Shown here piece by piece: positions 31,421 through 64,000 of a stretch of 64,000 nt of DNA. Position numbers and translations under genes: made by a program. The number at the start of each line of letters is the position of its first letter. Positions within the stretch are counted from its first letter, which is position 1. The notes below the pieces were generated by a model. That model was given only the letters and a program-made list of their open reading frames with translations. It did no database searches and was not told the DNA's origin. Source of the DNA: Ogataea parapolymorpha DL-1 (lineage: Eukaryota; Ascomycota; Pichiomycetes; Pichiales; Pichiaceae); NCBI RefSeq assembly GCF_000187245.1, contig NC_027860.1, positions 930,001-994,000 on the forward strand. Direction: 5' to 3'.

Positions 31421-31811
31421 ATGTCGCAGAAAAGAGGAAGACCAGCACCTAAGCTCAATAGGGCCTGTATGCTCTGTGGTCTTGTGCAGTCAATGAGCGT
31501 AAGTATGCCAATCACTATGACGCCTAACATAACAGCAATTTCGTAACGAAGGATGTCCAAACTGTGAGTCAGTTTTACATTTCGCAGACAATGACGATCT
31601 CGTTCGAGAGTGCACTTCGCCTACCTTTGAAGGACTTGTTGCTACTCATGGAGATCAGGGATCATGGGTGGCGAGATGGCTCAGAATTGAGAATTTTGTG
31701 CCAGGATTATATGCTGTGCGGGTTCTCGGCAAATTGCCTGACGATGTCCGAGGCGACTTGCAGGCACAGGGCATTGAATACAGACCGCGCGATGGATCCA
31801 TCCAAGATTAA
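31421..31811 (+). CDS. SPT4: Transcription elongation factor Spt4, two exons
   Basis: Partner of Spt5 in DSIF, which rides on RNA polymerase II. The gene is join(31421-31498, 31536-31811), 117 residues. Exon 1 ends 'CMLCGLVQSMS' and exon 2 continues 'QFRNEGCPNC', restoring the four-cysteine zinc finger (C16, C19, C33, C36) with the same spacing as S. cerevisiae Spt4. Downstream 'VRECTSPTFEGLV', 'GSWVARWLRIENFVPGLYAV' and 'LPDDVRG', plus the final 'YRPRDGSIQD', are typical Spt4. No unspliced frame covers the gene: without removing the 37-nt intron the zinc finger is broken. A different frame over exon 2 (31564-31869) is a shadow. It shares a 41-bp divergent promoter with COX18. Confidence 0.93.
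31499..31535 (+). other. Ultra-short spliceosomal intron of SPT4 (37 nt)
   Basis: Starts GTAAGT, has the branch-site-like CCTAAC at 31523-31528 (branch A 31527) and ends ACAG. The branch A is 8 nt before the intron end. Phase 0, after codon 26. Removal joins the two halves of a conserved zinc finger without gap or insertion relative to yeast Spt4. Confidence 0.9.
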
Positions 31812-32146
31812 CCGTCATATAAAATTGAGAAATTTTGGTGTACATCAAAAGGTACGAGCTATACGATAGGTGGATTCATATGAAGAACAGTTATTTACAA
31901 TCACCTGCAATTTTATGACGATAGCCTCCCTGATGAGCGTAAAGTGCGAATACAACCATTTAGTGGTTGTCAAGCCTCTCAGGGAGACAATATTTCACTA
32001 GTGCCTCCTATGATGCCGTTTGGTTACATAATCGGGACAACCACATGCTGTGAAAATTTTCAACAAAAGGAATTTTGTATTGTATAAAAAGATCGCTAGA
32101 TCTCGATTTTTTCATACTTGTTACTTTAACTGTTATCCTTATAAAA
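31812..32146. other. Intergenic region between SPT4 and SAH1
   Basis: A 335-bp stretch holding the SPT4 3' end and the SAH1 promoter. It contains TATAAAAA at 32083-32090, 57 bp before the SAH1 ATG, and a nested inverted repeat at 31926-31986. I find no open frame with family features. Confidence 0.55.
31926..31986. repeat. Nested inverted repeat upstream of SAH1
   Basis: Outer arms CTCCCTGA (31926-31933) and TCAGGGAG (31979-31986) are perfect 8-bp inverted repeats. Inside them ACAACCA (31952-31958) and TGGTTGT (31964-31970) form a perfect 7-bp hairpin with the 5-nt loop TTTAG. The combination could fold as one two-tier stem-loop in RNA, or be paired operator half-sites. No known family was recognised. 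Confidence 0.45.
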
Positions 32147-33484
32147 ATGAGCAATTACAAAGTCGCTGACATTTCCCTTGCTGCCTTCGGTAGAAAGGAC
32201 ATTGAGTTGTCCGAGAACGAGATGCCTGGTCTCATGTACATCAGAAGAAAATATGGACCATCCCAACCTCTAAAAGGTGCCAGAATCGCTGGATGTTTGC
32301 ACATGACCATCCAAACTGCAGTCCTGATTGAGACTTTGGTCGCTCTTGGAGCAGAGGTTACCTGGTCCTCATGTAACATCTACTCCACCCAGGACCACGC
32401 TGCTGCTGCTATTGCTGCAGCAGGTGTCCCAGTCTTTGCCTGGAAGGGAGAGACCGAGGAAGAGTATCTGTGGTGTATTGAGCAGCAGCTGTTTGCTTTC
32501 AAGGACGGAAAGAAGCTCAACCTGATTTTGGATGACGGTGGAGACTTGACTTCTCTTGTCCACGAGAAATACCCAGAAATGTTGGAAGGCTGTTACGGTC
32601 TTTCTGAGGAGACGACCACCGGTGTTCATCACTTGTACAAGATGATGAAGGAGGGTACCTTGAAGGTTCCAGCCATTAATGTCAATGATTCCGTTACCAA
32701 ATCCAAGTTCGACAACTTGTACGGTTGCAGAGAATCTCTTATTGATGGTATCAAAAGAGCTACCGACGTTATGATCGCCGGTAAGGTTGCTGTTGTTGCC
32801 GGTTTCGGTGACGTTGGTAAGGGTTGTGCCATGGCTTTGAGAGGTATGGGTGCTAGAGTGATCGTTACCGAGGTTGACCCAATTAATGCTTTGCAAGCCG
32901 CTGTTTCTGGTTACCAAGTCACCACTATGGAGGAAGCCGCCCCAATTGGTCAAATATTTGTGACTACCACTGGTTGCAGAGACATCATCACTGGTGAGCA
33001 CTTCTCTGTTATGCCAGAGGACGCCATTGTTTGTAACATTGGTCATTTCGATGTGGAAATTGACGTCGCTTGGTTGAAAGCTAACGCTGTTGATACTGTC
33101 AACATCAAGCCTCAAGTCGACAGATACCTGCTCAAGTCTGGCAAGCACGTGATTTTGCTTGCTGACGGTAGATTAGTCAACTTGGGTTGCGCCACCGGTC
33201 ACGCTTCGTTCGTCATGTCCTGTTCTTTCTCCAACCAAGTTCTTGCCCAAATCGCTTTGTTCAAGGCTGACGATGCTGCTTTCAGAAAGCAATTCGTTGA
33301 GTTCGAGAAGACTGGTCCGTTTGACATTGGTGTTCACACCTTGCCAAAGATCTTGGATGAGACCGTCGCTGCTTGTCACTTGGACCACTTGGGCGTCAAG
33401 CTGACCAAGCTAACCAAGGCTCAAAGCGAATACTTGGATATTCCAGCACAGGGTCCATTTAAGGCTGATCACTACAGATACTAA
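32147..33484 (+). CDS. SAH1: S-adenosyl-L-homocysteine hydrolase
   Basis: Cytosolic NAD-dependent enzyme that cleaves S-adenosylhomocysteine to adenosine and homocysteine, clearing the product inhibitor of all methyltransferases. The 445-residue protein shows '[20 protein letters not shown]', '[18 protein letters not shown]', the NAD-binding '[19 protein letters not shown]', '[15 protein letters not shown]' and the C-terminal 'KADHYRY', all hallmark segments. The true ATG at 32147 (AAAAATGAG) was chosen because the longer frame begins with TTG inside the leader. A TATAAAAA box sits 57 bp upstream. Codon use is strongly biased, consistent with high expression. Its activity would support the sphingolipid C9-methyltransferase and other SAM users. 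Confidence 0.97.
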
Positions 33485-33660
33485 ACGATATTAGACGATT
33501 AGCAATTTTGCATCAACTGCATTTGCGATTTAGGTTTCTCTTTTGCTTATGAGTTCCACCTCTTTTATGTTTGAATGTCATGTTTCAACATCATGTATAA
33601 TACTGGTATAGATATCTTCAACGAGATTACTGTTTTTGGTTAGGTAAATTACTGAATTTT

Positions 33661-35409
33661 ATGGCATATTTAATGTATTATTTTCTGGGGATATGCGATA
33701 AAAATAAAATTTACATGATTGAAATTCCGTCTTATCTACTAAAACTGCGTTATGGGGCCGTTGCACAGCGGACACTTCAACAGATACGCTCATCTGAGCA
33801 ACCAAAGTCCAAGGATGATGTTCGCAATGCCATGGTAAGCCAACTCTCCACTATTGGGATAATTGGGTCCAATCCAGTCATGTTTAGCAAGAATGAGGAT
33901 TATATCGATAAGTTGGTGGAAATCTTCAAGAATAAGGGACCTGCAAAAGCGAGTGCAATGGTTACTGATGAGTTTGTCAATGACGAGACCGAGACGGATG
34001 AGCTTGTGACGGAAGTTGACGATAGCAGCGTTGGCAAATCTCCCTCTGCTGCATTGAAAGTCGAACCTCTAGATAGTTCGGCTACTTCTATTGACTGCCA
34101 ATCTCTCCCATCTCGATGGATCACTCCAAAGGAATGCCAGTTTGAGCTTTCGCTAGACGGTTTGGAGATCTCGACCAAGAATCCCACCAAATCCGTGTCC
34201 TCCACTTCCTCAATAACGGTTAATCTTCCTCATCACGGTCGTTCCAGCATATTCTCGACAAAAGCCGATTTTAGCGTGCATGAAACGATCGGCATATACT
34301 ATTATGAGGTGGAGATTCTTTTTGGCCTAAACTCGGGGTCGGAGATAACAATAGGATACATGGATGGAGATCAACCAGAGGAAATCATCAGCTCTTTGAG
34401 GGGCCACGACGAGAACGCATGGGGATACAAAGGCAAAGACGGAAAGCTAATAAGCTTTGAGGAGTGTAGATCCAGCGTTCGTACCTCGTGCAAATTTGGC
34501 AATAAAGATGTCGTTGGATGCGGAGTGAACTTCGTCAATCGCTCGATTTTTATCACCAAGAATGGTGTATTCCTTGGTGAAGCCTTTTCTTTGCCATCGA
34601 ACATGAAACGAGTCGTGCCAGTGGTGAGTCTGGGATCATGGAACTCGATTTCAACCAATTTCGGCCATACCAAAAGCTTCAGGTTCAACATTGACAACTA
34701 TGTCGACTCATTCAAGTTACGGTTTCTAAAGACAATCAATAACTATAAAATACCCCCGGTGACACTAGACAACGGCACAGAAATTAAGGACTCCAACGAT
34801 ATGAAGAACTCGCTTAACCAGATGATTAAAAAGTACTTTGAGCATAGAGGGTATGCAAACGCGCTCAAGTCATTTGAGAAGGATTTGAGTTTTGAAGGCC
34901 ATACAGAGCCACCATTTCCTATAAGACGGGAAAGCTATATCAAGAAACAGCTCAAGGATTTGATTTCAAGCAATGAAATCGATTCAGCCACGGAGTTGGT
35001 TAATTCCAATTTCCCTGGTCTGCTCGAAGACAATACAGATATACAGTTTAAACTAGACTGCCTTAAACTGGTGAACATGGTCGGTAATGATAGTGAAGAA
35101 CAATTTATTAAACTTGCTAAACAAATGAAGTCGGCTTACACTTCGGAACAATATCAAAAAATACTTAACGATCTTTTGGGGTTGCTTGCATACGATGACC
35201 CGACTGCCACTGCGTTGTACAAATCATTCGTGAACTTCGAACGGGCTAGATTGGTGCACAAGCTCTGCATGTTGATCAATATGAAAAGTGGCATTCCGGC
35301 ATTATCAAATTTTGAACAGCTAATTCACGCCGCAGACTCCATGGTCGCTGAGAGCAACGATCTCAATACGGCACTGATAGACGTAGTAAATGATTTTGTC
35401 CAGATATGA
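33661..35409 (+). CDS. VID30: GID/CTLH ubiquitin-ligase subunit Gid1 (Vid30), RanBP9-like
   Basis: Scaffold of the GID E3 ligase that degrades gluconeogenic enzymes after glucose return. Near the N-terminus 'IPSYLLKLRYGAVAQRTLQQI' matches the 'FPSYLL' start region of yeast Vid30. A SPRY domain spans about 195-340 ('IYYYEVEILFGLNSGSEITI', 'DVVGCGVNFVNRSIFITKNG'). A LisH motif at about 380-405 ('MIKKYFEHRGYANALKSFE'), a CTLH at about 420-475 and a C-terminal CRA-type helical region follow. At 582 residues it is much shorter than S. cerevisiae Vid30 (958), lacking the long acidic insertions. An in-frame ATG at 33715 (MIEIPSYLL) is an equally plausible start. The stop lies 2 bp from that of the convergent next gene. 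Confidence 0.82.
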   Translation: MAYLMYYFLGICDKNKIYMIEIPSYLLKLRYGAVAQRTLQQIRSSEQPKSKDDVRNAMVSQLSTIGIIGSNPVMFSKNEDYIDKLVEIFKNKGPAKASAMVTDEFVNDETETDELVTEVDDSSVGKSPSAALKVEPLDSSATSIDCQSLPSRWITPKECQFELSLDGLEISTKNPTKSVSSTSSITVNLPHHGRSSIFSTKADFSVHETIGIYYYEVEILFGLNSGSEITIGYMDGDQPEEIISSLRGHDENAWGYKGKDGKLISFEECRSSVRTSCKFGNKDVVGCGVNFVNRSIFITKNGVFLGEAFSLPSNMKRVVPVVSLGSWNSISTNFGHTKSFRFNIDNYVDSFKLRFLKTINNYKIPPVTLDNGTEIKDSNDMKNSLNQMIKKYFEHRGYANALKSFEKDLSFEGHTEPPFPIRRESYIKKQLKDLISSNEIDSATELVNSNFPGLLEDNTDIQFKLDCLKLVNMVGNDSEEQFIKLAKQMKSAYTSEQYQKILNDLLGLLAYDDPTATALYKSFVNFERARLVHKLCMLINMKSGIPALSNFEQLIHAADSMVAESNDLNTALIDVVNDFVQI

Positions 35410-35411
35410 GT

Positions 35412-35927
35412 TCACAAGTGTTTTTTCAATTCCTCCAGGATAACGTCGCTCAATTTTATAATTCCGTCTGCATTGCACAATCTATATGTGTTATTAGCCT
35501 GGTAGGTGGACTGATCCATATTGCCCATTGCATCAACTTTGATGTAGCCTAACACGTTATCAACATTCACTTGCTGGTTCATGTATTCGGGAACACGTTT
35601 CAGATCATATATGGGCATATAAGAATTTCGATAATTAAGCGAATCCAGTCGATACATCATTTCATCAGCAACGTGGTCTTTAATAACCTGTTGTAAGCGC
35701 TCGATGAAAGACTTGTTTTCAACGAAATTATCAGGTGTGACTTGGTAGTCACCACCTATATTATCTATTGCTTTGATTTTGCCTATCGGCAGGCGTGCAG
35801 GGTTGGAGCTAAAAGATAGTAATGCGGTGGACCCAGCCTGATGAAGATATAACTGTGACTGGGCGGCATATTTTAGTGTTTTGACTAGATTTCTGTTGGC
35901 AAATTGACCGATCCCAGATAAGCTCAT
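35412..35927 (-). CDS. Conserved-looking 171-residue protein, function unknown
   Basis: Not recognised. The 171-residue product starts MSLSGIGQFANRNLVKTLKY, which is basic and amphipathic with no acidic residue in the first 30, compatible with a mitochondrial presequence. A soluble alpha/beta-looking domain with 'LPIGKIKAIDNIGGDYQVTP' and 'VADEMMYRLDSLNYRNSYMP' follows. The C-terminal 'NTYRLCNADGIIKLSDVILE' is well structured, so a real protein is likely. Its coding status is supported by a single uninterrupted frame with an ATG start, and by its position filling the space between GID1 (2 bp between stops) and the IRC6-like gene on the same strand (57 bp). Confidence 0.65.
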   Translation of the reverse strand: MSLSGIGQFANRNLVKTLKYAAQSQLYLHQAGSTALLSFSSNPARLPIGKIKAIDNIGGDYQVTPDNFVENKSFIERLQQVIKDHVADEMMYRLDSLNYRNSYMPIYDLKRVPEYMNQQVNVDNVLGYIKVDAMGNMDQSTYQANNTYRLCNADGIIKLSDVILEELKKHL

Positions 35928-35984
35928 ATTTTGAAGTATAATTTTTGCGGGGAAAATATATTTGAATTGGCAGCTCCGGATAAT

Positions 35985-36734
35985 TTATATTTTACCATCT
36001 TCAAAGTAGTCGAGTATATTTTCGGACATTCTCTGCGCAAAATCATGCTTTTGTTCTTCGGGAAGACGGGAAGCGTCAATACGCGCCTGTTTCATTTTTT
36101 CCACAAGCTGAAAAACGTCTAAAAACTTCTCACTATCGCGATCCAGCAAAGGTTGCGTGTAATCAACAGCAGTTTTAAGTGGTTTGCTTGCTTGTGTTCG
36201 CTGTTGTAAAGATCTCCATCTATGTGCTTGAACTGAAGCACGGATCTGTTCTTGATCATAAGTAATATACTCAAACCCTGACATAATGAACATATCCTGA
36301 TAGAATTCCTCGGTTTCTAGCGGATTGAATCCAACGACAATCTTAAATCCATCCCACTGGGGCTCTCCAAAATCTTCAGTATATTCGTCGTCCAACTTAG
36401 TCGCTAGGCGCTCTAGATGTCGTTCAATCTCTTCGATTTCTTCGTTGCTTGTGGATTGTAGATCAATACAAATTACTAGCCCTTGTATTTCTTCTCGGAG
36501 TATTTTGGCTTCTGCGGTATTAAGCTCGTTAAACCATTCCTCAGCAGACTCGAATTCATCTACGAAAATAGAGACCGATGTTCTATAATACTTCGTTTCA
36601 ATCGGAACATCGTCCACGATAATACCACTTTGAGATACATCATTTGTCAGGTCTTTATCTTCGACGGAGAACACGTGCTGGACAAGTCGCACCTTATCCA
36701 CACCTACCTTACCGGCGATCAATATTCTGTTCAT
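35985..36734 (-). CDS. Irc6/AAGAB (p34)-like adaptin-binding protein
   Basis: Probably a clathrin-adaptor regulator with a small-GTPase-like fold, related to animal AAGAB/p34 and yeast Irc6 (237 residues, against 249 here). The N-terminus 'MNRILIAGKVGVDKVRLVQH' has the strand-loop-helix opening of that fold with a degenerate P-loop. 'EIQGLVICIDLQSTS' and 'WDGFKIVVGFNPLETEEFYQ' form the following core strands, and an amphipathic C-terminal helix ends 'RMSENILDYFEDG'. I chose the ATG at 36734. An upstream in-frame ATG at 36803 would abut the SEC15 start codon head to head (CATATG) and add 23 residues before the fold. Assignment is by fold logic and length, and is moderate. Confidence 0.55.
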   Translation of the reverse strand: MNRILIAGKVGVDKVRLVQHVFSVEDKDLTNDVSQSGIIVDDVPIETKYYRTSVSIFVDEFESAEEWFNELNTAEAKILREEIQGLVICIDLQSTSNEEIEEIERHLERLATKLDDEYTEDFGEPQWDGFKIVVGFNPLETEEFYQDMFIMSGFEYITYDQEQIRASVQAHRWRSLQQRTQASKPLKTAVDYTQPLLDRDSEKFLDVFQLVEKMKQARIDASRLPEEQKHDFAQRMSENILDYFEDGKI

Positions 36735-36803
36735 GAGTTTGAATTGGCTGTGTAAATCCCAACTTTGAATAAACAAAAAATAACTTGCAATTGTTTGTTT
36801 CAT

Positions 36804-39305
36804 ATGACATCAAAACTAGATATAAACCCACAGAAAAATGATAATGACTCACTCATACAATATGCTCTGACATCGGATGATTATCTGGACCAATTTGTGC
36901 CAATAATAAAAGCTGAATTGGCGAACAAAGAGTCTTTGGAGGATTTGATATCGAGACTTGATTCCGCGTACAAAGAAAAAGAAGACACCCTTGAAGGAGC
37001 TTCCTTTACTTCAATAGACAAGCTGACTAGCTCAATCGAAAACATATCCGAAGTATCAAAATCTTCCGGGCAAATCGGTCAAGAGATTGCGTCCATAAAT
37101 GGCCAGCTTAGAAAGACAGGGTTGGATTATCTGGATAAGAAGAAAACCGCCCTCAAATACAAGCGACTCCATAACAAGATATCAGAGACTACATTGACAA
37201 TTAACTTGTGCCTGGATATGCTTGATAAAACAAACAAAGTCTTTGAATTGTTTCACAACAAAAGCTATTATAAAGCTTTGATCAACTTGAATTTGCTTAT
37301 GAAAAGTCGGTCTGAAGACATCGAAATGTTTGAATTCACTCAAAAAATTCATAACTCGCTTCCGACAATCAAACAGCTTATTATCGATGAGACATTCAAC
37401 CAGCTAATAAGATGGTTCAACGTCAGCTTTGAAAAAAATCTTACAGCAATCGGAGAACAAATGTTCGAGCATTTTGAGAAGCTGAATCAAGCATGGGCTG
37501 AACAACAGCAGCAGGATGAAAGTTTGCTTCCGTTCAAGGTAAACACGCCTTTGGAAAGGGCTTTCAGAGATGACGAGCTCAAATCTTTCAACCCCCTCTC
37601 AAATGACAAGATTCAGATTGATCTTGGTCCAATTTATCATTCTATAATGGTGTTCGAGCTGATCGATGAATTTGATAGACTCAAAGATGACTTTTCCAAC
37701 GAACTGCTTCGTAAGCGTGATCGACTGATCTACCCTATAAGAGAGGCACTCGCGACTCGAAAACTGGACATGTTTTCCAACAACGAGTCTCTGAAAATTG
37801 TCATTTACTCGCTCGCTGCCTTTTTCGTGACTGACAGAATGATTGCAGCCAAAACGGAATATCAATTGAGAAACAAAAAGCAAACCGATGATTTGTTTAG
37901 TTCTGTCATCACAAAATTCATTCCAGTGCTAAAGAGACACATTGAGAAATATCATGACGACTTTCAAAACTTGAAGGAACTGAACGAAATAATTGGCGTC
38001 TTTGTCCAAATCCTGGAAAATTATGAGTTCAATGTGGAAGCACTCTATGAAGTACTTATTACGCTATTCCAACAATACATCAGTACTCTTACAAAAGATT
38101 TTGAGCTTGATTATCAAAACCTGTCTCTTGAGGAAAACCCACAGCCTATCACTATCGAGAATAAGACACAATTGAATAATGTTCAGGCAAACTGTTTCCA
38201 CAAATTTAAAGATACCATAACAGAGTTCCCAGTTGTTCTTCCGTTCTCGATAATCTATGTGGCTACTTGTTTAAAAATGAGAGTGTTTATTCATGATATT
38301 TACGACTTCGTTGGAAAGTATTATGTGCATCAAAATTCGGAGATCTTGAAGCTTATTGGCAAATCTGTGGATCACGTTCTCATAAATATCGTGTTGAAGG
38401 ATCTCAAAACGAAAATCGATTCTTCATATAAAGAAGAGGTGTCCCAGAACCTCATTAATCTAGAGTTCTTTTCCAGGTCCGTGATTGAAATCGAAAATTA
38501 TTTGAACTACTCCAGCGATCCCACCATCGCGAGATGCAGGTCATCATCGCTATTAACTCGCTTAAGGTCTCAGAAAGAGTTTCAAGCAATACAGTCTAAA
38601 GCGGAAGAAGGAATGTTCGATATGGTGGACTCCAAAATTGATATGCTGTTTGATATGGTCGATTTTGATTGGGAATCCAAGGAAGTCAATGAGGAGCCTA
38701 GCATTGGTATCAAAGATATGGGGCTGTTCTTGGAAAACATATTCATGCTTGACTTCTCGCATCTTCCCTACACAATCAAATCTCTGTTGCTGATTAGAAC
38801 ATTTGACAAAATTGTCAACTTCTTTAAACAATCGATCTATCAAACTGATTTTATCACAAACGAAAGTATAATGAATTTTGAGACGGATATCAAGTATATT
38901 GAATCTATTATTCCTGGTCTCAAGCAACAGAAAACATCGACGCGGCACCTGACGGCTGACTCGGATACTTCCAACTCGACTTTCCAAACTATATTTGCTG
39001 GTTTAACACAAATCATAGACCTTTTGAAAGACGGAAATCTAGAAGCTTACAAAGATGAGACTACACGAATGCGTAAATTCAATACCATTTTGCCAGAAGA
39101 AGCGATCGAGTTAATTCAGAAACTTGAAAACTATCAGGTGCTGAAACGCGAGATGTCAGAACCAGAGCAACAAGAACACGTTGATCCCAATAGTGGGTCA
39201 AATGGAGATTCCGCACGGTCAATGTTTGGCTTCAAGAGGTCGAATACCACCGCATCTTTTACATCTCCTTCAAAAATGTCAATGTTCAAAAGACAGATTT
39301 CCTAA
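36804..39305 (+). CDS. SEC15: Exocyst complex subunit Sec15
   Basis: Rab Sec4 effector in the exocyst, which tethers secretory vesicles to the plasma membrane at growth sites. The 833-residue product has the Sec15 layout: an N-terminal coiled coil with 'LEDLISRLDSAYKEKEDTLE' and 'QIASINGQLRKTGLDYLDKK'-type heptads, 'KSYYKALINLNLLMKS', then long helical rods with 'LPFSIIYVATCLKMRVFIHD' and a C-terminal region containing 'GLTQIIDLLKDGNLEAYKDE', the part that binds Sec4 in the family. S. cerevisiae Sec15 is 910 residues. The ATG at 36804 was used because the upstream extension starts with TTG. Only 1 bp separates its stop from that of the convergent EMC4. Confidence 0.87.
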   Translation: MTSKLDINPQKNDNDSLIQYALTSDDYLDQFVPIIKAELANKESLEDLISRLDSAYKEKEDTLEGASFTSIDKLTSSIENISEVSKSSGQIGQEIASINGQLRKTGLDYLDKKKTALKYKRLHNKISETTLTINLCLDMLDKTNKVFELFHNKSYYKALINLNLLMKSRSEDIEMFEFTQKIHNSLPTIKQLIIDETFNQLIRWFNVSFEKNLTAIGEQMFEHFEKLNQAWAEQQQQDESLLPFKVNTPLERAFRDDELKSFNPLSNDKIQIDLGPIYHSIMVFELIDEFDRLKDDFSNELLRKRDRLIYPIREALATRKLDMFSNNESLKIVIYSLAAFFVTDRMIAAKTEYQLRNKKQTDDLFSSVITKFIPVLKRHIEKYHDDFQNLKELNEIIGVFVQILENYEFNVEALYEVLITLFQQYISTLTKDFELDYQNLSLEENPQPITIENKTQLNNVQANCFHKFKDTITEFPVVLPFSIIYVATCLKMRVFIHDIYDFVGKYYVHQNSEILKLIGKSVDHVLINIVLKDLKTKIDSSYKEEVSQNLINLEFFSRSVIEIENYLNYSSDPTIARCRSSSLLTRLRSQKEFQAIQSKAEEGMFDMVDSKIDMLFDMVDFDWESKEVNEEPSIGIKDMGLFLENIFMLDFSHLPYTIKSLLLIRTFDKIVNFFKQSIYQTDFITNESIMNFETDIKYIESIIPGLKQQKTSTRHLTADSDTSNSTFQTIFAGLTQIIDLLKDGNLEAYKDETTRMRKFNTILPEEAIELIQKLENYQVLKREMSEPEQQEHVDPNSGSNGDSARSMFGFKRSNTTASFTSPSKMSMFKRQIS

Positions 39306-39306
39306 A

Positions 39307-42814: not shown

Positions 42815-44322
42815 ATGTCTTCATTGAAAGAGTTAGAACAGTTCAATTGCGGTCTACGAACCACGAACGTGAGTACCATGGTCCCAGGATATTAACCAAG
42901 TAGTATCCAGCTATCAAAAATGCACCATTGCCGGCTGATGGTCCAGGGTCCAAGCACTTCAACAACTGGATTCTCTTGTCCATTATGTTAGGTGTTCCTT
43001 TCTATATCACTAGAAGACTTGGATTGGGCCTATACAGTTTTGTCTTTTTGTTTGCATTGTTAGCAATTCCAATTCTGATGGCCTGGTGGACTGTTCTGTC
43101 GACCTACTCCCCAAGGCTCAATGAAAAGGTCAAATTGCCAAACATGGGTGTTCAATACTACCTTGAATTCCATGACGATGAACTTAAGAATAAATACAAG
43201 GATCAGCAGAAAATCCCAATGGAGACTTTCCACAATCTTTATTTTGAAGGAAAGGTGTCTTTTAAAGGTGATGCCTTGGACGTCATGGAATACAGACACG
43301 ATTGGGCTTCGTTCAGATTTACCTTGAGCTTGTTCAAATTCTTCCTGTTTGGCATGATTCCAGAAGTCATCATGCATACCAAATCGCAGGATGAGGAACA
43401 AGTGAGAGATCACTATGACAGGGGCGATGATTTTTACTCCTGGTTCTTAGGCCCAAGAATGATTTACACCTCTGGTATCATCACTGAAATTGAGAAAAAT
43501 GAGACTCTTGAGGAACTTCAAGACAACAAGTTGAAAGTCGTCTGTGAGAAGATCGGTTTGAAAAAAGGTGACAAGATGCTTGATCTCGGATGCGGATGGG
43601 GTACTCTTGCTTGTTTTGCTTCTTCGCAATACGGGGCAGAGGTCACTGGTGTCACATTGGGCAAGAACCAAACCAAATATGGTAACGAGAAGTTAGCTTC
43701 TTACGGTGTTTCTCCTGACCAATCCCGCATCGTGTGCTGTGACTATAGAGATTCACCAATGCCTAAAGAGGAGGGCAAGAAATACGACAAGATCACCTGT
43801 TTGGAAATGGCGGAACACGTTGGTGTTAGAAAGTTTTCTTCATTCCTGCGCCAAGTTTATGACATGTTGGATGATGATGGTGTCTTCTTCTTGCAATATG
43901 CCGGATTGAGAAAATCATGGCAATACGAGGACTTGATATGGGGCCTATTCATGAACAAATACATTTTCCCTGGCGCTGACGCCTCAACTCCTTTAGATTT
44001 TGTGATTTCTGCTTTAGAAGGAACTGGATTTGAGACAGTTAGTGTTGACAACATCGGTGTTCATTACTCCGCTACATTATACAGGTGGTACAAAAACTGG
44101 TTGGCCAACAAGGAGGAAGTGATCTCCAAATACGGTATCAAATGGTACAGAATTTGGGAATTCTTCCTTTCTTACTCCACTATTATTGCCAGACAAGGTT
44201 CTGCTACCTGTTATCAAATTGTGCTCAGAAAGAACATCAACTCTTACCACAGAATTGAAGACGTTCCTCGGCAAGAGGGTCTGCTTGCTCCAGCTTCCAG
44301 GCTTGAGAAATGGGCCAAATAG
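42815..44322 (+). CDS. MTS1: Sphingolipid C9-methyltransferase, two exons
   Basis: SAM-dependent enzyme that methylates C9 of the sphingoid base during fungal glucosylceramide synthesis, in the ER membrane. The gene is join(42815-42868, 42904-44322), 490 residues. Exon 2 opens 'YPAIKNAPLPADGPGSK', which in other fungi is an internal segment preceded by a Ser/Thr-rich leader. Without exon 1 the frame has no ATG before it and would begin at TTG. Two membrane segments ('LLSIMLGVPFYITRRLG', 'YSFVFLFALLAIPILMAWW') follow, then 'DFKGDALDVMEYRHDW'-type 'SFKGDALDVMEYRHDWASF', the SAM motif 'MLDLGCGWGTLACFA' and 'CLEMAEHVGVRKFSSFL'. S. cerevisiae lacks this pathway. Confidence 0.93.
42869..42903 (+). 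other. Ultra-short spliceosomal intron of MTS1 (35 nt)
   Basis: Starts GTGAGT, carries TATTAAC at 42890-42896 (branch A 42895) and ends GTAG, 8 nt after the branch A. Phase 0, after codon 18. An earlier AG at 42899-42900 must be skipped, because using it would place an in-frame TAG at the exon border. Confidence 0.88.
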
Positions 44323-45529: not shown

Positions 45530-47447
45530 CTATTTTCCAATCTCCAGTACTTTTTTATAGCAGTAGAGTTCAAGAAGAAGTTTGCGAAGCAATTCTTGGT
45601 TCATTGGAAACATCTTAGCGATGCTTTTCAGTTTCACGGAGCCCATTCTCTGATCATATACCCAGTGCTTCAGATCTGGAAGCGATAACAGAGATGGTAT
45701 TTCTTCGTAGGGAAAGCAAAGCCCTTCCGGATCGATTGTAAAGAGTTTCTTTTTAGTCGTGGAAACCAATTGCGAGGTGAATATCAGATTCTTTAATGCA
45801 AGAAGCAACGACGACTCCTCGTAATGCAAGGGAGACCCGCCCAAATCGAGAACTATTGTGATTATTAAACTCAAAAATTGCTTATTCTCTGTTGCATCAT
45901 ACAGGTAGAAAGCATTAAGTCTTACAACCAGTGCTTGGTAAAATAATGAGTCTTCATTCAAATATGTTCCTCTTTTGATCGACTTTTTAAAGCTTGAAGC
46001 GATATCAAAACACTGCTTCATTTTCGTAGCTACCAAGAGGATATCCTCTTTCCGAGAATAGATCTGACTGATGTTAGACAAAAACCAGTACGACTCCCCT
46101 TTCTCACAACAAGGCCGGGTTTTCACAAAAACCATATTTCGGACGGTTGGAGATGAAGTCGAATAGACAAATTTGATGAACTCAAGAGTGTATTTGTGAG
46201 TGACTCTGGAAGCGGCTTTCTCGATAGTACCTGTTAATTCCGATTCTTTGAAACATAATAGACTAGACCAGATCATAGACTGAAACAAAGGATTTACGAT
46301 GATAGAGGTTATCAAGGTATGACAAGTTTTCAAGGTTGGTTTTTCTGCTATTGCTTTGAGTCCCTCATACAAAAGGGACACTATGGTGCCGTTCTTGTTT
46401 ATGTTATAGTAGACTAGCAGATTGTCAAAGAAGTCCCCTAGCACCAGCAAGAAATGGTTCTTCGAGTCATGGTTTTTGCATAGTTCCATGATATCAAGGT
46501 AATAATTGAGTGACGAAATATAAAGCTGATATTCTTGGGTTTCGGTGAAGAGTTCCGTGGTAACTTTGTTTTTGACTGGATCCCTTTTTAATCTATTTTC
46601 GCTTTCCTGCTCTCGCAAAGATAAAGGGTACTTTAGAAGTGTCTCGCACAGTTGGGATTCAGTGAAATAGAGACGAGCATGCTGAGACACATCGATCAGC
46701 CTAGCTAAGTTACCCAACAATATATCCCGATACTGAAGCGTGAATTTTTCGCTTGGCGGGGGATAGATAGTGGAATTTATAAACCTGTGAACGAAGTCGA
46801 ATGTGGGGAATCGCTTTTTTGATGCTTCATAAGAGTCTGATTTTGGTATTTTGATTTTAAACCATTCCTCTGCAAGTGCTGGAAATTTAGTATAAGTTTG
46901 AATGATACTGGCCACAAGAAGAATAGAACACTTCAGGAGCTTTGAATCTGGTGCAGCGTGTAAACCTGATACAAAGTTCTCGAGCGCTTTGCAAATGTAA
47001 GAAGAGAACTCTTCCATTGTGTCATGAAAATGTTCATAATTCTTTAGCACAGTGAAGAACAGGGAACACAATTCTGTTGTTACCGAATGGTCGCCAAAAC
47101 GCAGCGCAACAATCCCAACACGGGATTCCAAAATACCGCTCAGTATCAATGATTCATACCGCTCTTTAAGGCCTGTGGAAAAGTTCTGATTCAAGCGCTT
47201 CAATGATATGTATAGTTCATTGAGACTATTATCGTCACACTAATGTGTTAGTACTAAGGTGGACAAAACTCACCTTCTTCAACACGCCGACGGTAGAGCT
47301 TTGAACGTTGTCGATCAAATATTGGAAACTGGAGTCTTGTTTCTTTTGGTTTGCGACAACAAACCTAGAGTTTGAAGAAACCGGGCGCTGTGTTGAGTGC
47401 TGTTCTAATGCAGCCGTTTTAGTTGGCGAAGCACTGAGGCTCTTCAT
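45530..47447 (-). CDS. Large helical protein of unknown function, two exons
   Basis: Not recognised. The gene is complement(join(45530-47239, 47274-47447)), 627 residues. Exon 1 encodes 58 residues ('MKSLSASPTKTAALEQHSTQ' to 'STVGVLKK'), a polar leader with an amphipathic start. Exon 2 continues CDDNSLNELYISLKRLNQ and is a run of alpha helices ('LFFTVLKNYEHFHDTMEEF', 'ILLVASIIQTYTKFPALAEE', 'YLDIMELCKNHDSKNHF') that reads like a HEAT/ARM-type repeat scaffold, with no signal peptide or TM segment. No ATG begins the exon 2 frame near its 5' end (it starts from TTG unspliced), so the 34-nt intron is required. It is divergent from KAR4 across 325 bp that carry pheromone-response elements. Confidence 0.75.
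47240..47273 (-). other. Ultra-short spliceosomal intron (34 nt) in the unknown helical-protein gene
   Basis: On the minus strand it starts GTGAGT, has a perfect TACTAAC and ends TTAG. The branch A is 8 nt before the end. Phase 0, after codon 58. A 34-nt length is not a multiple of three, so retention shifts the frame. Confidence 0.88.
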
Positions 47448-56205: not shown

Positions 56206-56244
56206 ATTTTTTTTTTATCTAAAAAAAAATTTGCTTGATCTTCA

Positions 56245-56841: not shown

Positions 56842-56902
56842 TGATGTAATCGGTAATGTCGAGGAACTGAACGATCTATATGTCTAGCAGTGATTTGTGT
56901 CT

Positions 56903-58328: not shown

Positions 58329-58574
58329 ATGCAATTCGTTACCGTGTTCCTTATGGCTGCCTCGGCCTTCGCTGCATCTACTGCTGTCACCGAATCTACC
58401 ACCCAAACTTCGGTTGTCTCGGTCACCGTTACTTCATGCGATTCCTCTGTCACTGACTGTCCATTTTCGAACAGCAGCGCGCCAGTCTCAACTTACGAGG
58501 GTGGTGCCCCAATTCATGGTTCTTTTTACGCTGCTGGAGCTGCCGCTCTTGCAGCAGGTGCTTTCCTTCTCTAA
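58329..58574 (+). CDS. Small GPI-anchored cell-wall protein
   Basis: An 81-residue secretory protein. A signal peptide of about 15 residues (MQFVTVFLMAASAFA) is followed by a Ser/Thr/Val-rich segment with two cysteines ('SVTVTSCDSSVTDCPFS') and one N-glycosylation sequon (NSS). The short spacer leads to a C-terminal hydrophobic GPI-attachment tail (SFYAAGAAALAAGAFLL) with a small-residue omega site just before it. After processing only about 45 residues would remain, so it is likely a minor wall or membrane decoration, as in many small yeast mannoproteins. No family assignment. It has a TATA box about 100 bp upstream and a long promoter. Confidence 0.8.
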   Translation: MQFVTVFLMAASAFAASTAVTESTTQTSVVSVTVTSCDSSVTDCPFSNSSAPVSTYEGGAPIHGSFYAAGAAALAAGAFLL

Positions 58575-58951
58575 GGTTAACGGTTGCGATGCTAATTTGT
58601 TTATTGTTTAACCAGGAATCTGTTTGCGTTTCTTCCTTTTTTGCAGAGGTGGGCGGTTGACTCTACGTAATTAGCGCGTTAGACCTGATTAATTGTACCG
58701 GTTTTTTCCTCAAATTGTAATGTTGTTGATTGATATTAACAGTACTTGTTTGCACCTTCCGTGTTGATCGTATATGGCCGTGAGGCAACTGTGCGGCCGG
58801 TTTTCAGGGGAATAAATATACTCTGGCTACCTATCGTCGCGTCGCTCGACGAAACCTGTACGAGAAATATTATTTCCCACCCTAGAAAATATTGTATTTG
58901 AACATTGTTTAGCTAGTGTTCAGTACAACACTCAATCACAGTGTCCTTACT
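58575..58951. other. Intergenic region between the GPI-protein gene and the ArfGAP gene
   Basis: A 377-bp stretch: GPI-protein 3' end and ArfGAP promoter. TCGTCG (58835-58840) and CGACGA (58848-58853) form a small inverted pair that I regard as incidental. An AATAAATA near 58810 could be a TATA-like element. No gene was seen. Confidence 0.45.
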
Positions 58952-61339
58952 ATGGACGTCTTTGTATCGATACTATTGAGCGATGTTCAAGTTAATCGCG
59001 GTTCCTCGAAGCTAACGAAAGTGACATTCAAGACACAGACCCAACAGGCGGTGGAAATCGACCTAGTTGCGAAGAAAATATCACAAACAACACCTATGGA
59101 ATTCATTCAAGATCGATCAAAGCTTTTATTGAAACTCCCTTCCTCATTCAGCATTGTTGAGGCCAAATTTGTAAAAGGCTCCAATTTGTACTTAATCGAA
59201 TCTATCGATGCGGATAATAAAGCGATGAAACATCCGATTGAAGCAGATTCTACCCAGATGACCATTCAGCTCAGCTCGAAACTTAACGGAAAGTTTACTT
59301 TGCAACTAAAGGAGGGTAGCCAGACCCTTTCCAAATTGTCGGTCTATTTCTATAGTGATACGTCAAGCTCTGGTCCTTCACAAAAAACCGAAATTATTCA
59401 TCCTGCAAACTTAACAGACCATTCGGGGAATCCATTCCCAATATCGTTGGAAGACGGACCCGTCTTCCGCGAAACACTTAATGATTACGAAACCAAAATT
59501 ACGAAATTAAAGCAAGCAATACGGTCTACGAATGACCTTTTAATTAACTATGAATCCTTATCCAATCAGCTTTATAATTCCAGAGCATCGCTCATAAAGT
59601 CCTTTAGCGTCATCGAATCCACTTTTCCAACTTTCTACTATTGTGAATTTGACAAATCTATTGTTTATTCATTCGAGAACCTAACGGATGAGAACAAGTC
59701 TGCCATAAGGCAGCTGAAATCCAGACTCTCGTCAACTAATAAACTCTCCGGACTAGAATCATATTTGGCATCCAAGAAACGAGTGTTCGAGGACGAAAGC
59801 AAAAAGTATTACGATTGGCTCTCGAGATTACTTAGTTCAGGCAAGTCGAAAGACGATAAACTTCTTCAGAAAAGAAAGAGCTTTGAATTGGCCAAGATTG
59901 ACTATTTTGTTTTTCTTTTCGACACGCTTGTTGACCTTGTTTTAGACTTTTGCAACCCTCAAAACCCCTTCATCAATGCATACAGCTCCTCAAAATCACA
60001 GCGGCAGAAAATCAGAGCAGCAGTGGAACGCGCCTCTTCAATGGCTGAACTGAATGCAGAATTATCCAAGATTCATGGCATTGCAGGCCCTAACAAGTCT
60101 GGTATCCTGTTTACCCAAGGTGGCCAAGGAAAGTCTGGTTGGCACAAGCAATGGGTGGTGCTCAATAATGGTAAACTTTCCGAGTTCATGGACTGGCGAA
60201 AAGGCACGTCAAGGCGTAACGAACCTATCGATATTTCTTTATCAAGCATCAAACCATTGGATATGGAAAAGCGCAAAAACTGTTTCAGGGTCATCACTAG
60301 TACTGGTATAGAACACTATTTTCAAGCGACCTCTGAGGAAGATCGCGATTCCTGGATTCAAGCATTGTATGATGCAGGTCAACAGATTAATTTCCATAAG
60401 TCCAGAGGTGACTTGGCCGGGGATCCACTTTTTGTGAATGCTAAAAAGACAAGAGAGATACAGTCTTCGAGCAACGACTCGAAAAAGGAATCCCTACAAA
60501 ATGACGGCAGGCAGCGAAGAGTGTCCTCGGTTTCCTTAGAGAATCTGCGCATGGTTCAAAAAGCCGACAGCAGCAATACTCGCTGTAGCGAATGTGGATC
60601 AACAGAGTCAGTTGAGTGGATTTCTATGAATCTACTTGTTATCTTCTGTGTCAAATGCTCTTCTTGCCACAGATCGCTTGGGACCTCTATATCTAAAGTC
60701 CGCTCACTCAAATTAGATGTTTTTACTCAGGAAGGCTATAAACTTTTGCAGTACATTAACAACAAGTCAAGCAATGCTATATATGAGGAGTTGTTGCCCA
60801 AGGAATCTCACATTAGCCCTGATTCTAACGATAAAGATCGGCTGAGGTTCATCACCAATAAGTATGCTGCGAAACAATACGTGAATCAAAAAGACGCTTC
60901 AAAAGCTTCTGAGTTTTTGATCCATGGCGTTCGAACTCATAATATTCCAGAAATAAGCAAAAGTTTTGCGCTTGGCGTTGATCGTGATCTGAAATTATAC
61001 AAGCCGACTGATCAGCTCACAAACCTGGAACCTCCTGCATTTTCTGTCTTGGAGTATGCTTTAAATTATCCCTCTTTAGAGGGCAAGGACAAATCTATCA
61101 AAGTTTTCGATCTCGCTGAGTATCTCATTCTGAATGGAACAAAATGTGGAGACAAGGTCCAGAATGTTATAGGCTTATCCCCCGAAGCATTGGATTATTG
61201 GCAATCAAAAATTGACCGCTTTAAAGGAAACTCTACTAAAACCCCAACTACCCAACTGTTATCTCAAACAGCCGCAGCACCAAAGTCTACACCCAAGGAA
61301 CATAAATTCAATCTTCTCAAAAAGAAGATGAAAAACTGA
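58952..61339 (+). CDS. AGE1: BAR-PH-ArfGAP protein, Age1-like
   Basis: Arf GTPase-activating protein of post-Golgi trafficking. The 795-residue product has an N-terminal beta-rich region, a BAR-like coiled region at about 170-375 ('NDYETKITKLKQAIRSTNDL', 'RKSFELAKIDYFVFLFDTLV'), a PH domain at about 380-480 ('SGILFTQGGQGKSGWHKQWV', 'YFQATSEEDRDSWIQALYDA') and an ArfGAP zinc finger at about 543-650. The zinc finger holds C-X2-C-X16-C-X2-C ('RCSECGSTESVEWI' and 'FCVKCSSCHRSLGTSISKVR') and the catalytic arginine in HRSLG. S. cerevisiae Age1 is 482 residues and is adjacent to SPS1, as here. The ATG at 58952 was chosen over a GTG upstream. Confidence 0.82.
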   Translation: MDVFVSILLSDVQVNRGSSKLTKVTFKTQTQQAVEIDLVAKKISQTTPMEFIQDRSKLLLKLPSSFSIVEAKFVKGSNLYLIESIDADNKAMKHPIEADSTQMTIQLSSKLNGKFTLQLKEGSQTLSKLSVYFYSDTSSSGPSQKTEIIHPANLTDHSGNPFPISLEDGPVFRETLNDYETKITKLKQAIRSTNDLLINYESLSNQLYNSRASLIKSFSVIESTFPTFYYCEFDKSIVYSFENLTDENKSAIRQLKSRLSSTNKLSGLESYLASKKRVFEDESKKYYDWLSRLLSSGKSKDDKLLQKRKSFELAKIDYFVFLFDTLVDLVLDFCNPQNPFINAYSSSKSQRQKIRAAVERASSMAELNAELSKIHGIAGPNKSGILFTQGGQGKSGWHKQWVVLNNGKLSEFMDWRKGTSRRNEPIDISLSSIKPLDMEKRKNCFRVITSTGIEHYFQATSEEDRDSWIQALYDAGQQINFHKSRGDLAGDPLFVNAKKTREIQSSSNDSKKESLQNDGRQRRVSSVSLENLRMVQKADSSNTRCSECGSTESVEWISMNLLVIFCVKCSSCHRSLGTSISKVRSLKLDVFTQEGYKLLQYINNKSSNAIYEELLPKESHISPDSNDKDRLRFITNKYAAKQYVNQKDASKASEFLIHGVRTHNIPEISKSFALGVDRDLKLYKPTDQLTNLEPPAFSVLEYALNYPSLEGKDKSIKVFDLAEYLILNGTKCGDKVQNVIGLSPEALDYWQSKIDRFKGNSTKTPTTQLLSQTAAAPKSTPKEHKFNLLKKKMKN

Positions 61340-61418
61340 ATTATATTGAGGGAGCAAAAAATAAAAGGGCAGGCAGGCGTTAATTATTTAATAAAATCAC
61401 CTCCATTTATTATTCTCG

Positions 61419-62858
61419 ATGGATGAGGGAGCCGACCATGCTTTTGATTTTGATCAACATGACCCAATGAACCTTGTGCGTTTGGGCGAATGTATTGGCA
61501 GGGGTAACTTTGGAGATGTTTACAAGGGAGAACTCGTGAAGACCTCACAAGTGGTTGCAGTTAAAATTATTGACCTTGAGAAGTCAGAGGACGACATTCC
61601 TGTTTTGATCCAGGAAATCAAATTTCTGAAAGGACTCAAGTCTCCGTATATCACGAATTGCTATGAGACGTATATTAAAGATGTGACTATGTGGATTGTT
61701 ATGGAGTATTGTGGCGCTGGATCCTGTGCTGACTTTCTCAAATGTTTCAAAAAATTAGACGAGAGGGTTGTTGCCTTCATCTTGCGAGATACCGTTCGAG
61801 GTTTGGAGTACCTTCATTCAATGAATAAAGTGCATAGAGACGTGAAGGCAGCAAATATCTTGGTCACAGATCACGGACAAATCAAACTGGCGGATTTTGG
61901 TGTGAGCGGACAGCTCACAGAGACTATGAACAAGAAGGAGACGTTTGTGGGCACCCCATTTTGGATGGCTCCTGAGATAATATTAAGACGTGATGGCTAT
62001 AATGAAAAAGTCGACATTTGGTCTTTAGGTATCACGGCTATCGAGCTGGTAACTGGATTCCCTCCCTATTCTAATGAAGAGCCAATGCGGGCAATATTTG
62101 AGATTCCTGATCGTCCGGCACCTATTTTAACAGGGGATCAGTACAGTGTTTATTTGAAACAGTTTGTGAAAGACTGTTTAAACAAAGAGCCAAGCCGAAG
62201 ACCATCGGCCAAAGCTCTGTTGAAAACAAAGTTTCTCTACAAGTTCAAGAGCAGATATAGTCCCATGCTACCTCTAATCACTGAGAAGAAATCTAAGATG
62301 CAGAGATTCAAGAAAAAACCCAAATTCTCGTTAAATTTTGAAGAGAAGCGTAGTGGCCAAGACATCCACTGGGACTTTGATCCAACGGTCAAATTGACCT
62401 CTCTGCAAATCAGCCATGGCAACCATTCGTCGCCTTCTGTTGGGTCGTCAGGCGGTATGGATGAAAATGAAATGCATAGTGATCACGAAAATAGCATACT
62501 GAGACCGGATACCGCTGTCACCCCTTCTACTTCACCATTATACAACCAGCGGTCTGAGCATACAAGGACATCTAAACCACCGACTTCAGGACAACGGGCC
62601 AGCAACAGCACTTCTTACCCAGCCATGAATTCCAGGGAATCTGTTTCTGTCAAAGAAAACGTTGACCCCCGAGGCCAGTATTTCTACAATAATTTGATCC
62701 GCGATTCGTTTGATAGCATCAGTCATCAATCACAATCCCAGCGTTTCAGAAAAAATCTCGAGCAATTGAAAACTGTCATGTACGAGATGGAAATGCGTAA
62801 TCCAGGGTTCTGTGAATTGTTGTGTCACAAAATCTTTAATAGCATGCTTCAAAGTTGA
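61419..62858 (+). CDS. SPS1: Germinal-centre-type Ste20-family protein kinase Sps1
   Basis: Serine/threonine kinase of the GCK III/Mst-Ysk type. Yeast Sps1 (490 residues, against 479 here) controls spore-wall formation and meiotic exit. The kinase domain covers about 17-275: 'LGECIGRGNFGDVYKGEL', VAVKIIDLE with the catalytic lysine, 'MEYCGAGSCADFLKC', 'VHRDVKAANILVTDHG', 'LADFGVSGQ' and the GCK activation segment 'KKETFVGTPFWMAPEII'. A linker containing 'KKSKMQRFKKKPKFSLNFEE' and a Ser-rich region lead to a conserved C-terminal helix, 'NLEQLKTVMYEMEMRNPGFC'. Neighbourhood with AGE1 and SNA2 matches S. cerevisiae YDR523C-YDR525W-A. Confidence 0.9.
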   Translation: MDEGADHAFDFDQHDPMNLVRLGECIGRGNFGDVYKGELVKTSQVVAVKIIDLEKSEDDIPVLIQEIKFLKGLKSPYITNCYETYIKDVTMWIVMEYCGAGSCADFLKCFKKLDERVVAFILRDTVRGLEYLHSMNKVHRDVKAANILVTDHGQIKLADFGVSGQLTETMNKKETFVGTPFWMAPEIILRRDGYNEKVDIWSLGITAIELVTGFPPYSNEEPMRAIFEIPDRPAPILTGDQYSVYLKQFVKDCLNKEPSRRPSAKALLKTKFLYKFKSRYSPMLPLITEKKSKMQRFKKKPKFSLNFEEKRSGQDIHWDFDPTVKLTSLQISHGNHSSPSVGSSGGMDENEMHSDHENSILRPDTAVTPSTSPLYNQRSEHTRTSKPPTSGQRASNSTSYPAMNSRESVSVKENVDPRGQYFYNNLIRDSFDSISHQSQSQRFRKNLEQLKTVMYEMEMRNPGFCELLCHKIFNSMLQS

Positions 62859-62966
62859 GAAAAAAAAGCCCTATTATTCCGCATTCTAGTAAAATATCTT
62901 CTTGCACTGCCTTACAGCAATCTTCTGGAGACAAACTCATAAAAAGTTGTAGAAAAACTTACAGCC

Positions 62967-63209
62967 ATGCACGCTAGAGATTGGTTATTGGCCTTCATTG
63001 GGGTGTTTTTACCGTTTGTTCCAGTTGGCATCAAACGCGGTATTTGTTCTGCAGACTTTTGGATCAACATTGCACTATGTTTCCTTGGCTTTTTACCAGC
63101 TCTGATACATTGCTGGTATATCATATCTTGCTATCCGCATGATACCCATACGAGGTATGCTGGAGTCACGCTACCTGGACGCGAACAACAGAATTATGGC
63201 AGCGTTTGA
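62967..63209 (+). CDS. SNA2: Sna2, PMP3-family small membrane protein
   Basis: An 80-residue protein (yeast Sna2 79) of the PMP3/UPF0057 family that travels to the vacuole. It begins MHARDWLLAFIGVFLPFVPV, matching yeast Sna2 at its 'MHARDW' start. Two transmembrane segments (about 6-22 and 32-53, 'FWINIALCFLGFLPALIHCW') flank a short loop. The cytosolic tail 'HDTHTRYAGV' and the final 'NYGSV' match the yeast sorting-signal region ending NYGSL. SNA2 is a neighbour of AGE1 and SPS1 in S. cerevisiae, which supports all three calls. Confidence 0.93.
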   Translation: MHARDWLLAFIGVFLPFVPVGIKRGICSADFWINIALCFLGFLPALIHCWYIISCYPHDTHTRYAGVTLPGREQQNYGSV

Positions 63210-63446
63210 TCTAGGTTCTAGTTTATGAAGGTGCACTTGAAAACGAGGTCTTAAATAACTTTGTGTATGTGGGGGAATATTTTATTTTGTTTACAAGTGT
63301 AATAAAGCACACTTATGAGCAGTGCGACAATCTTCAGCAGGAACATAAGCCTTGAGTTCCAACATGGGTATCTGAAAACCTTTTATACCTGCAGCCCGAC
63401 ACGAAGCCCGTCACAGTGTGGGTTAAAAGAATGGGAAACGAAGAAT

Positions 63447-64000
63447 ATGGATCAGTTGTATCTACCCAACTTGACCAGTATGAAAGTATGTAATCAGCTA
63501 CCGTGGTACTAACCAAAGCTATCATTCAATCTGGTTCTTGACGGCCAGAGTGTGAATCCTCAAAGACATCCTGTAGCCTGTGAAATGATTGCACATTGTC
63601 TGATGCAGGGCAAGATTTGGCAGCAGCTAGGATATTTGACATCTTTCAAGCAGGAGAAGCTTCAAACCACCTGTTGCTCTATCGTACTCAAAGACGATTT
63701 ACTGAATAGGCAAATGTATCAAGACCTCAAAAACAACGCAAACGGAATCGCAAAGCTCAACAACACATTGATATACATTTTGGATGAAATCGTTTTTCAC
63801 ATCTATATTAATGACGATCGTCTCTGCCCATCAAACAGCAACTTTGTAAAGTTGTTAATGGAGGACCTCAATTATCTCATGGCATGTAACTACCTGCAAC
63901 TAGAATCTGCTTTCCCTTTGGTGTTTTGCTTTTATTCCCGTTCTATATTACAACAATCATATGAGTTAATGTCCTCCATTCAAGAGTCGCTTCAAAGGAA
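63447..64000 (+). CDS. Split gene of unknown function, 3' truncated by the window end
   Basis: Not recognised. The gene is join(63447-63485, 63519->64000). Exon 2 is open to the last base and encodes over 160 residues of clearly protein-like, mostly helical sequence ('GKIWQQLGYLTSFKQEKLQT', 'LKNNANGIAKLNNTLIYILD', 'LLMEDLNYLMACNYLQLESA', 'VFCFYSRSILQQSYELM'), but has no plausible ATG start near its 5' end. A perfect 33-nt intron joins it to exon 1, which ends MDQLYLPNLTSMK. An in-frame ATG further upstream at 63315 would add 44 residues of less protein-like composition. The choice between the two starts is open. The gene follows SNA2 on the same strand. Confidence 0.65.
63486..63518 (+). other. 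Ultra-short spliceosomal intron (33 nt) in the last gene
   Basis: Starts GTATGT, holds a perfect TACTAAC at 63507-63513 (branch A 63512) and ends AAAG, only 6 nt after the branch A. Phase 0. Although 33 is a multiple of three, the intron contains an in-frame TAA, so retention truncates the product. It is the shortest of the four. Confidence 0.85.

Follow-up and report, generated by a model that had tools for sequence, protein, structure and literature searches.

Short spliceosomal introns of near-fixed layout appear to form a genome-wide class in the yeast Ogataea

Ogataea appears to carry a genome-wide class of spliceosomal introns of about 30 to 49 bases, shorter than the introns of baker's yeast. 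We describe this class from a 64,000-nucleotide (nt) stretch of Ogataea parapolymorpha DL-1 (the window; bases 930001-994000 of contig 7, NC_027860.1) and from the genome around it, 8,874,589 bases in 7 contigs. Introns of 37, 35, 34 and 33 nt interrupt four genes of the window: SPT4, the methyltransferase gene MTS1, a gene for a conserved helical protein and REC102 (Table 1). On sequence evidence these four introns are real, and their predicted removal restores all four genes.

Without splicing, each of the four frames hits a stop 8-15 codons past the 5' site. The spliced Spt4 product has 117 residues, with a best match in O. polymorpha (99% over 86%); its Pfam Spt4 match (residues 14-89) crosses the junction, as do three PDB SPT4 alignments, with no gap there. 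Spliced MTS1 encodes 490 residues whose N-terminus is collinear over the junction with the full-length relatives P0002-P0004. Its best match is from Ogataea haglerorum (96% identity over 91%), other Pichiaceae come next, and three Eremothecium/Ashbya MTS1 records show 68-71% identity. An alternative AAG in the MTS1 intron, ending at 42900, three bases before the TAG, would bring an immediate in-frame TAG stop. In Rec102, the Pfam REC102 match (residues 2-171) crosses the junction at residue 14; further in-frame ATGs of this gene lie at 63315 and 63480. The spliced helical protein has 627 residues, with its best match in O. parapolymorpha (96% in the search, 99% in the alignment). Together these best matches place the genome in the O. 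polymorpha group. Conservation of the helical-protein exon 1 extends to P0165 and P0168, from O. parapolymorpha and O. philodendri, and the exact junction is present in none of the four relatives found; this predicted intron rests on its frame, its signals and the conservation of exon 1. A preliminary description of the window, made from the letters alone, had placed the four introns with the same 5' sites, branch sites and terminal AGs, and our analysis confirms it, together with its distances of 26-29 nt from the 5' site to the branch A and 6-8 nt from there to the intron end.

Table 1. Exons and introns of the four window genes (window positions; spans give 5' site to branch A / branch A to intron end, in nt)
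Feature	Position	Strand	Details
SPT4 coding exon 1	31421..31498	+	26 codons, 78 nt
SPT4 intron	31499..31535	+	37 nt; GTAAGT, GCCTAAC, CAG; phase 0; branch A 31527; spans 29/8
SPT4 exon 2 with stop	31536..31811	+	
MTS1 (sphingolipid C9-methyltransferase) coding exon 1	42815..42868	+	18 codons, 54 nt
MTS1 intron	42869..42903	+	35 nt; GTGAGT, TATTAAC, TAG; phase 0; branch A 42895; spans 27/8
MTS1 exon 2 with stop	42904..44322	+	exon-2 ATG at 42985
Conserved Ogataea helical protein, coding exon 1	47274..47447	-	58 codons, 174 nt
Helical-protein intron	47240..47273	-	34 nt; GTGAGT, TACTAAC, TAG; phase 0; branch A 47248; spans 26/8
Helical-protein exon 2 with stop	45530..47239	-	
REC102 coding exon 1	63447..63485	+	13 codons, 39 nt; from the nearest long-enough in-frame ATG, 63447
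REC102 intron	63486..63518	+	33 nt; GTATGT, TACTAAC, AAG; phase 0; branch A 63512; spans 27/6
REC102 exon 2	63519..64000	+	continues beyond the window end; completed from locus L070

A frame-aware caller for introns of 28-52 nt was run on 264 kilobases (kb), namely the 64-kb window and 200 kb of contig 1. It returned eight introns, and those called in the window were precisely the four of Table 1; one of the eight, a 33-nt call on contig 1 (strand position 23107), is a candidate only and was kept out of the set of 33 introns tabulated below. Sixty scrambled-motif decoy sets gave a mean of 0.47 introns and a maximum of 3 on the same 264 kb. Decoys that paired the true 5' site with a scrambled branch site gave a mean of 1.1 (maximum 7), and those pairing a scrambled 5' site with the true branch site a mean of 0.78 (maximum 6), the two maxima being due to CTAAY and GTDRGT, decoys that share sequence with the true motifs. 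Naive scaling of 8 per 264 kb suggests some 270 such introns genome-wide, with a wide error and with one of the eight a candidate only. Regional composition is strongly uneven, at about 42% G+C in the window versus 45-58% in the sampled contig 1 stretches.

The whole genome was then scanned for an exact 5' site (GTAAGT, GTATGT or GTGAGT) with TACTAAC at a defined gap downstream; the same patterns, reversed, served as controls. At gaps of 12-30 nt the three 5' sites together give 48 matches against 15 for the reversed controls. GTAAGT contributes 29 against 6 (rough Poisson probability 1e-11 for 29 when 6 are expected), with 21 of the 29 at gaps of 13-18, and GTATGT contributes 12 against 3. 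At gaps of 31-61 neither GTAAGT (6 versus 7) nor GTATGT (3 versus 7) is in excess, and GTAAGT, the only site scanned at gaps of 0-11, shows none there (1 versus 5). The excess is thus confined to matches whose branch A lies about 24 to 42 nt from the 5' site, a lower edge set for GTAAGT only and an upper edge set for GTAAGT and GTATGT up to a gap of 61. A scan of this kind had been proposed in the preliminary description; for GTAAGT it places the excess at gaps of 12-30 alone among gaps of 0-61, and together with the decoys it bears out the view that the window introns belong to a whole-genome class and are not four accidents.

All 48 matches were inspected in their surroundings, coding support being judged by frame continuity; 32 have it, close to the 33 left when the 15 control matches are subtracted from the 48. 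These 32 comprise 22 from an automatic coding filter, the window introns of the helical protein and REC102, and eight added by looser inspection (UBC8 intron 1, L031, L038, L047, L051, L059, L063 and L069). The filter had passed 25 of 45 loci, including L025 (MET8), which is not a motif match; from the passes we dropped L048, whose product is unlike a protein, and L033, where the pass belonged to another 5' site, and retained L044 as probable. Some of the coding-supported calls are analyst judgement (for example L036, L044, L059 and L060). The 16 matches counted as unsupported are L004, L028, L029, L030, L033, L037, L041, L045, L048, L049, L052, L053, L055, L056, L062 and L065. For a description of intron anatomy we tabulated 33 introns: 27 of the 48 motif matches, the introns of SPT4, MTS1 and MET8, and three from contig 1. 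Five of the 32 stand outside this set (L038, 71 nt; L044, 43 or 49; L059, 33; L063, 41; L069, 40). The 27, which include the window introns of the helical protein and REC102, were selected on TACTAAC at a gap of 12-30, so the tabulated range is partly imposed.

The 33 introns measure 30-54 nt with a median of 35, all except one of 54 nt falling at 30-48 nt. The branch A lies 24-41 nt from the 5' site (median 27; 24-29 in 25 of 33) and 5-13 nt from the intron end (median 7; 5-9 in 30 of 33). The 5' sites are GTAAGT in 17, GTATGT in 9 and GTGAGT in 7; the branch site is YTAAC in all 33 and TACTAAC in 27. The hexamers and YTAAC were search requirements throughout, and TACTAAC was required for the selected 27. 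The 3' ends are CAG (20), TAG (9) and AAG (4), and phases 0, 1 and 2 occur 15, 12 and 6 times. Eight introns were found without the filter on TACTAAC and gap, seven through the 28-52 nt length filter and MET8 through its published intron; they measure 32-41 nt, and in seven of the eight the branch A is again 26-29 nt from the start.

A 5' site of the GTRNGT kind pairs with U1 and U6 in yeasts, and a U12-type 5' site is ATATCCTT/GTATCCTT; the window introns begin with GTAAGT, GTGAGT, GTGAGT and GTATGT. The introns are very probably ordinary U2-type GT-AG spliceosomal introns. The shortest known introns of S. cerevisiae measure about 50 nt, and 32 of the 33 tabulated here fall below that length. 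Set against these figures, several generalizations in the preliminary description hold for the window and not for the class. Phase 0 is shared by all four window introns but by only 15 of the 33, and the length of 33-37 nt, true of these four, covers 16 of the 33, with a range of 30-54 and one more intron of 71 nt. Position within the first 58 codons is general with exceptions: a PX-domain gene has its intron after at least 99 codons and a transporter-like gene after 86. Overall, the earlier interpretation is partly supported.

Across the genome the short introns lie in recognizable genes. In 12 of 27 scanned proteins Pfam domains cross the junction, though for some the part of the domain ahead of the junction is no more than 1-5 residues: SPT4, REC102, an actin-related protein, MET8, an LSM protein, a PX protein, a VPS25-like ESCRT-II subunit, ERG28, a protein kinase, RTF2, RPL37 and, at its second intron, UBC8. 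The Pfam names obtained are actin-family, RRS1, LSM, ATG8, PX, ESCRT-II subunit, ERG28, protein kinase, family-2 glycosyltransferase, WD40, RTF2, RPL37, ThiF-type enzyme, FHA, MET8 domains, Elf1-type, UBC and DUF1771/Smr. By eye, we take individual translations to be ARP3, ALG5, SMB1, CDC28, COP1, AOS1, VPS25, ARC18, TIF3, YPT31, a V-ATPase proteolipid and a DUR3-type transporter. For ATG8, a PDB alignment runs from residue 1 across the junction, and for UBC8, named after its best PDB match, an E2-24 kDa enzyme, a PDB alignment crosses both junctions. In MET8, 61 coding nt precede a 32-nt intron, which thus falls in codon 21; for O. polymorpha MET8, an intron of 32 bp has been reported at that codon (PMC8540529).

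UBC8 (L035; contig 3 706254-707054, minus strand) has two 34-nt introns around a 39-nt internal exon, 107 nt in all. At L047 (36 nt) and L051 (31 nt) the intron splits the start codon as AT|G, and in the Elf1-type gene the intron follows immediately after the ATG; L051 reads like a V-ATPase proteolipid subunit. The gene of an LSM-domain (Sm-like) protein at L034 (contig 3 530330-531056), presumably spliceosomal SmB judging by eye, itself has a 32-nt intron.

A further claim of the preliminary description was that simple annotation misses or shortens real genes on account of these introns, and public models of relatives agree. We rebuilt these models on the window DNA, not on the relatives' own DNA. 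Taking the same 37 nt out of SPT4 yields the O. polymorpha model P0121 (100 of 101 residues), which begins at a later exon-1 ATG. Three other SPT4 models call for longer introns with different donors: 85 nt with GTGCAG (P0130, O. haglerorum, 99 of 101 residues), 94 nt with GTCTTG (P0132, O. angusta, 98 of 98) and 106 nt with GTATGC (P0134, O. parapolymorpha, 94 of 94). All three are without part of the conserved N-terminal zinc-finger domain of SPT4. For the helical protein, the O. parapolymorpha model P0165 (608 of 611 residues) has an 82-nt intron whose donor, GTACTA, sits at the branch site. It reads the first residues of the 34-nt intron identically before the bogus intron begins; the intron sequence is therefore present in another assembly. 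The O. haglerorum MTS1 model P0001 begins at the exon-2 ATG. Some of the short introns thus seem to have been misread by automatic annotation in public records, at the cost, in SPT4, of part of a conserved domain.

These records bear on how new the class is. Short introns may be the main and unremarkable class of Ogataea introns, effectively known to annotators and simply not written up as a class. For H. polymorpha DL-1 the published annotation counts 457 genes with introns and puts the average intron length at 65 nt (PMC3866509), a 32-bp intron is already in print for MET8, and P0121 already fits the 37-nt SPT4 intron. Against this, no length distribution or minimum is given in the portions of PMC3866509 and PMC8540529 consulted, and the annotation was made with TopHat and Augustus, while the O. 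haglerorum, O. angusta and O. parapolymorpha models misbuild SPT4 or the helical protein. We regard this account as falling only slightly short of an even chance. The literature searched, in which few subscription papers were covered, yielded no description of such a short-intron class in Ogataea; there is substantial doubt here, in that the class may already be familiar to specialists.

The near-fixed layout invites a mechanistic reading. Shrinkage would have left the introns with GTAAGT, GTATGT or GTGAGT as a strong 5' site, a spacer that in most cases is 13-18 nt long, and a branch site of the TACTAAC type, whose A falls about 26-29 nt into the intron and is followed by the AG after 5-9 nt. 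U1 would pair with the 5' site and U2 with the branch site, U6 would then replace U1, and branching would be followed by ligation. The near-constant spans would represent the smallest RNA path that the Ogataea spliceosome can bridge, and near-consensus sites may compensate for a missing polypyrimidine tract, for which there would be no room. The genome has a U2 small nuclear RNA gene with the branch-pairing GTAGTA, and Slu7 is present. Among markers of factors that assist short introns in humans, RED_N and HCNGP have no match in the genome, with 14 prokaryotic control genomes silent; LisH_TPL, which we take as a possible SMU1 marker, has none either, and here the 14 control genomes rang once, below the cut-off. 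Prokaryotic controls cannot validate these searches, and the negative results therefore do not establish absence. In zebrafish, the RES complex is reported to matter for short introns (PMC6047831). For GTAAGT, the lack of excess below a gap of 12 nt suggests that the branch A can come no closer to the 5' site than a functional floor of near 24 nt.

Alternatively, the short spans may reflect deletion bias acting on a compact genome, and any budding-yeast spliceosome could then remove these introns. The genome size of 8.87 Mb fits this account, and deletion bias working against a functional minimum has been put forward as a model for narrow intron size ranges (PMC10245619); on the other side, splicing of S. 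cerevisiae MATa1 requires a minimum distance from 5' site to branch, according to the title of Kohrer and Domdey (1988). We give this explanation somewhat less than an even chance. A tentative proposal, which we hold to be rather unlikely, is that the Ogataea spliceosome is adapted to a near-fixed span, with the branch A 26-29 nt from the 5' site and the AG 5-9 nt beyond it, and that such introns are the main class of this genetically tractable yeast. If it were true, the span would be shorter than the distances at which assembly in human extracts is reported to be blocked, and shorter than the limit implied for MATa1 splicing in S. cerevisiae, and comparing the two yeasts would reveal components that set the minimum span. 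As the class is a natural one, has consensus signals and occurs in a laboratory yeast, the minimum span can be tested by swapping introns and factors.

Several observations weigh against a genome-wide short-intron class or limit its description. GTGAGT alone shows no excess (7 matches versus 6 reversed), five of its seven matches having coding support. Coding support is lacking for 16 of the 48 matches, about 15 chance matches being expected from the controls, and of the 32 supported matches eight came in through looser inspection, which had no decoy test to match it; some products among the 32 have no recognized relative. The tabulated range is in part a product of selection, as said above for 27 of the 33. 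The 264 kb are too small to give the share of longer introns: a codon-scored scan for them found too few for a length distribution, and its stricter filter kept only 1-3 of the short introns as well. The TIF3-like gene at L038 (contig 4 348713-349452) seems to splice at an AG 32 nt past the branch A, making a 71-nt intron, and to pass over a nearer TAG at 6 nt. Finally, the evidence for intron removal consists of reading frames, homologous proteins and a single published intron.

Part of this would be expected if the motifs were chance combinations of GT, branch site and AG close to unrelated open frames, as the 16 unsupported matches and the decoy maximum of 3 per 264 kb (7 with a motif overlapping a true one) allow; yet the eight real calls against a decoy mean of 0.47, the 48 matches against 15 genome-wide, and the domains or structures that align over junctions make chance very improbable. 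Sequencing errors, pseudogenes or stop-codon readthrough imitating introns, for which the interrupted frames speak and nothing further, have next to no probability, since the interruptions open with GTRDGT, which is followed at near-fixed spacing by a branch site and an AG (a search requirement), conserved genes such as those for RPL37, a protein kinase and an LSM protein contain many of them, and the 34-nt intron sequence recurs in another assembly through P0165.

Among known systems, the proposed Ogataea class resembles the introns of other Saccharomycotina that have strong branch sites, such as S. cerevisiae, E. gossypii and D. hansenii, in GT-AG borders, a strong 5' site, a (T)ACTAAC branch site and a short distance from branch to AG. 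In E. gossypii the branch-to-AG distance is 6-9 nt in 75%, and over 228 introns of that species the median length is 63 nt and the mean 113 (PMC2483917); against that median of 63, the tabulated Ogataea introns have one of 35, with 24-29 nt from 5' site to branch in 25 of 33. The O. polymorpha MET8 intron has the same length and lies in the same codon as the one found here, and is reported as a single intron, with no class mentioned in the available text of that paper (PMC8540529). Shorter introns exist: all those of mikrocytids are 16 or 17 nt (PMC10245619), and some ciliate introns are about 25 bp (PMC5014332). These likewise keep to narrow lengths near a functional minimum, and the preliminary description's claim of a lower physical limit thus stands at most for a spliceosome of the Ogataea type. 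P. tetraurelia introns are reported to have no branch-point signature (PMC2483917), whereas the Ogataea class has a strong TACTAAC; signals here are not degenerate as in Paramecium, the combination of GTAAGT with TACTAAC at gaps of 12-30 being itself over-represented. In human extracts about 50 nt are said to be needed for efficient assembly, and 35 nt abolishes it on E1A (PMC6692369), while the 56-nt human HNRNPH1 intron has 27 nt from 5' site to branch (PMC8363638). Human short introns that depend on Smu1/RED or on SPF45/RBM17 share with the Ogataea class a short distance from 5' site to branch (PMC8363638, PMC6692369).

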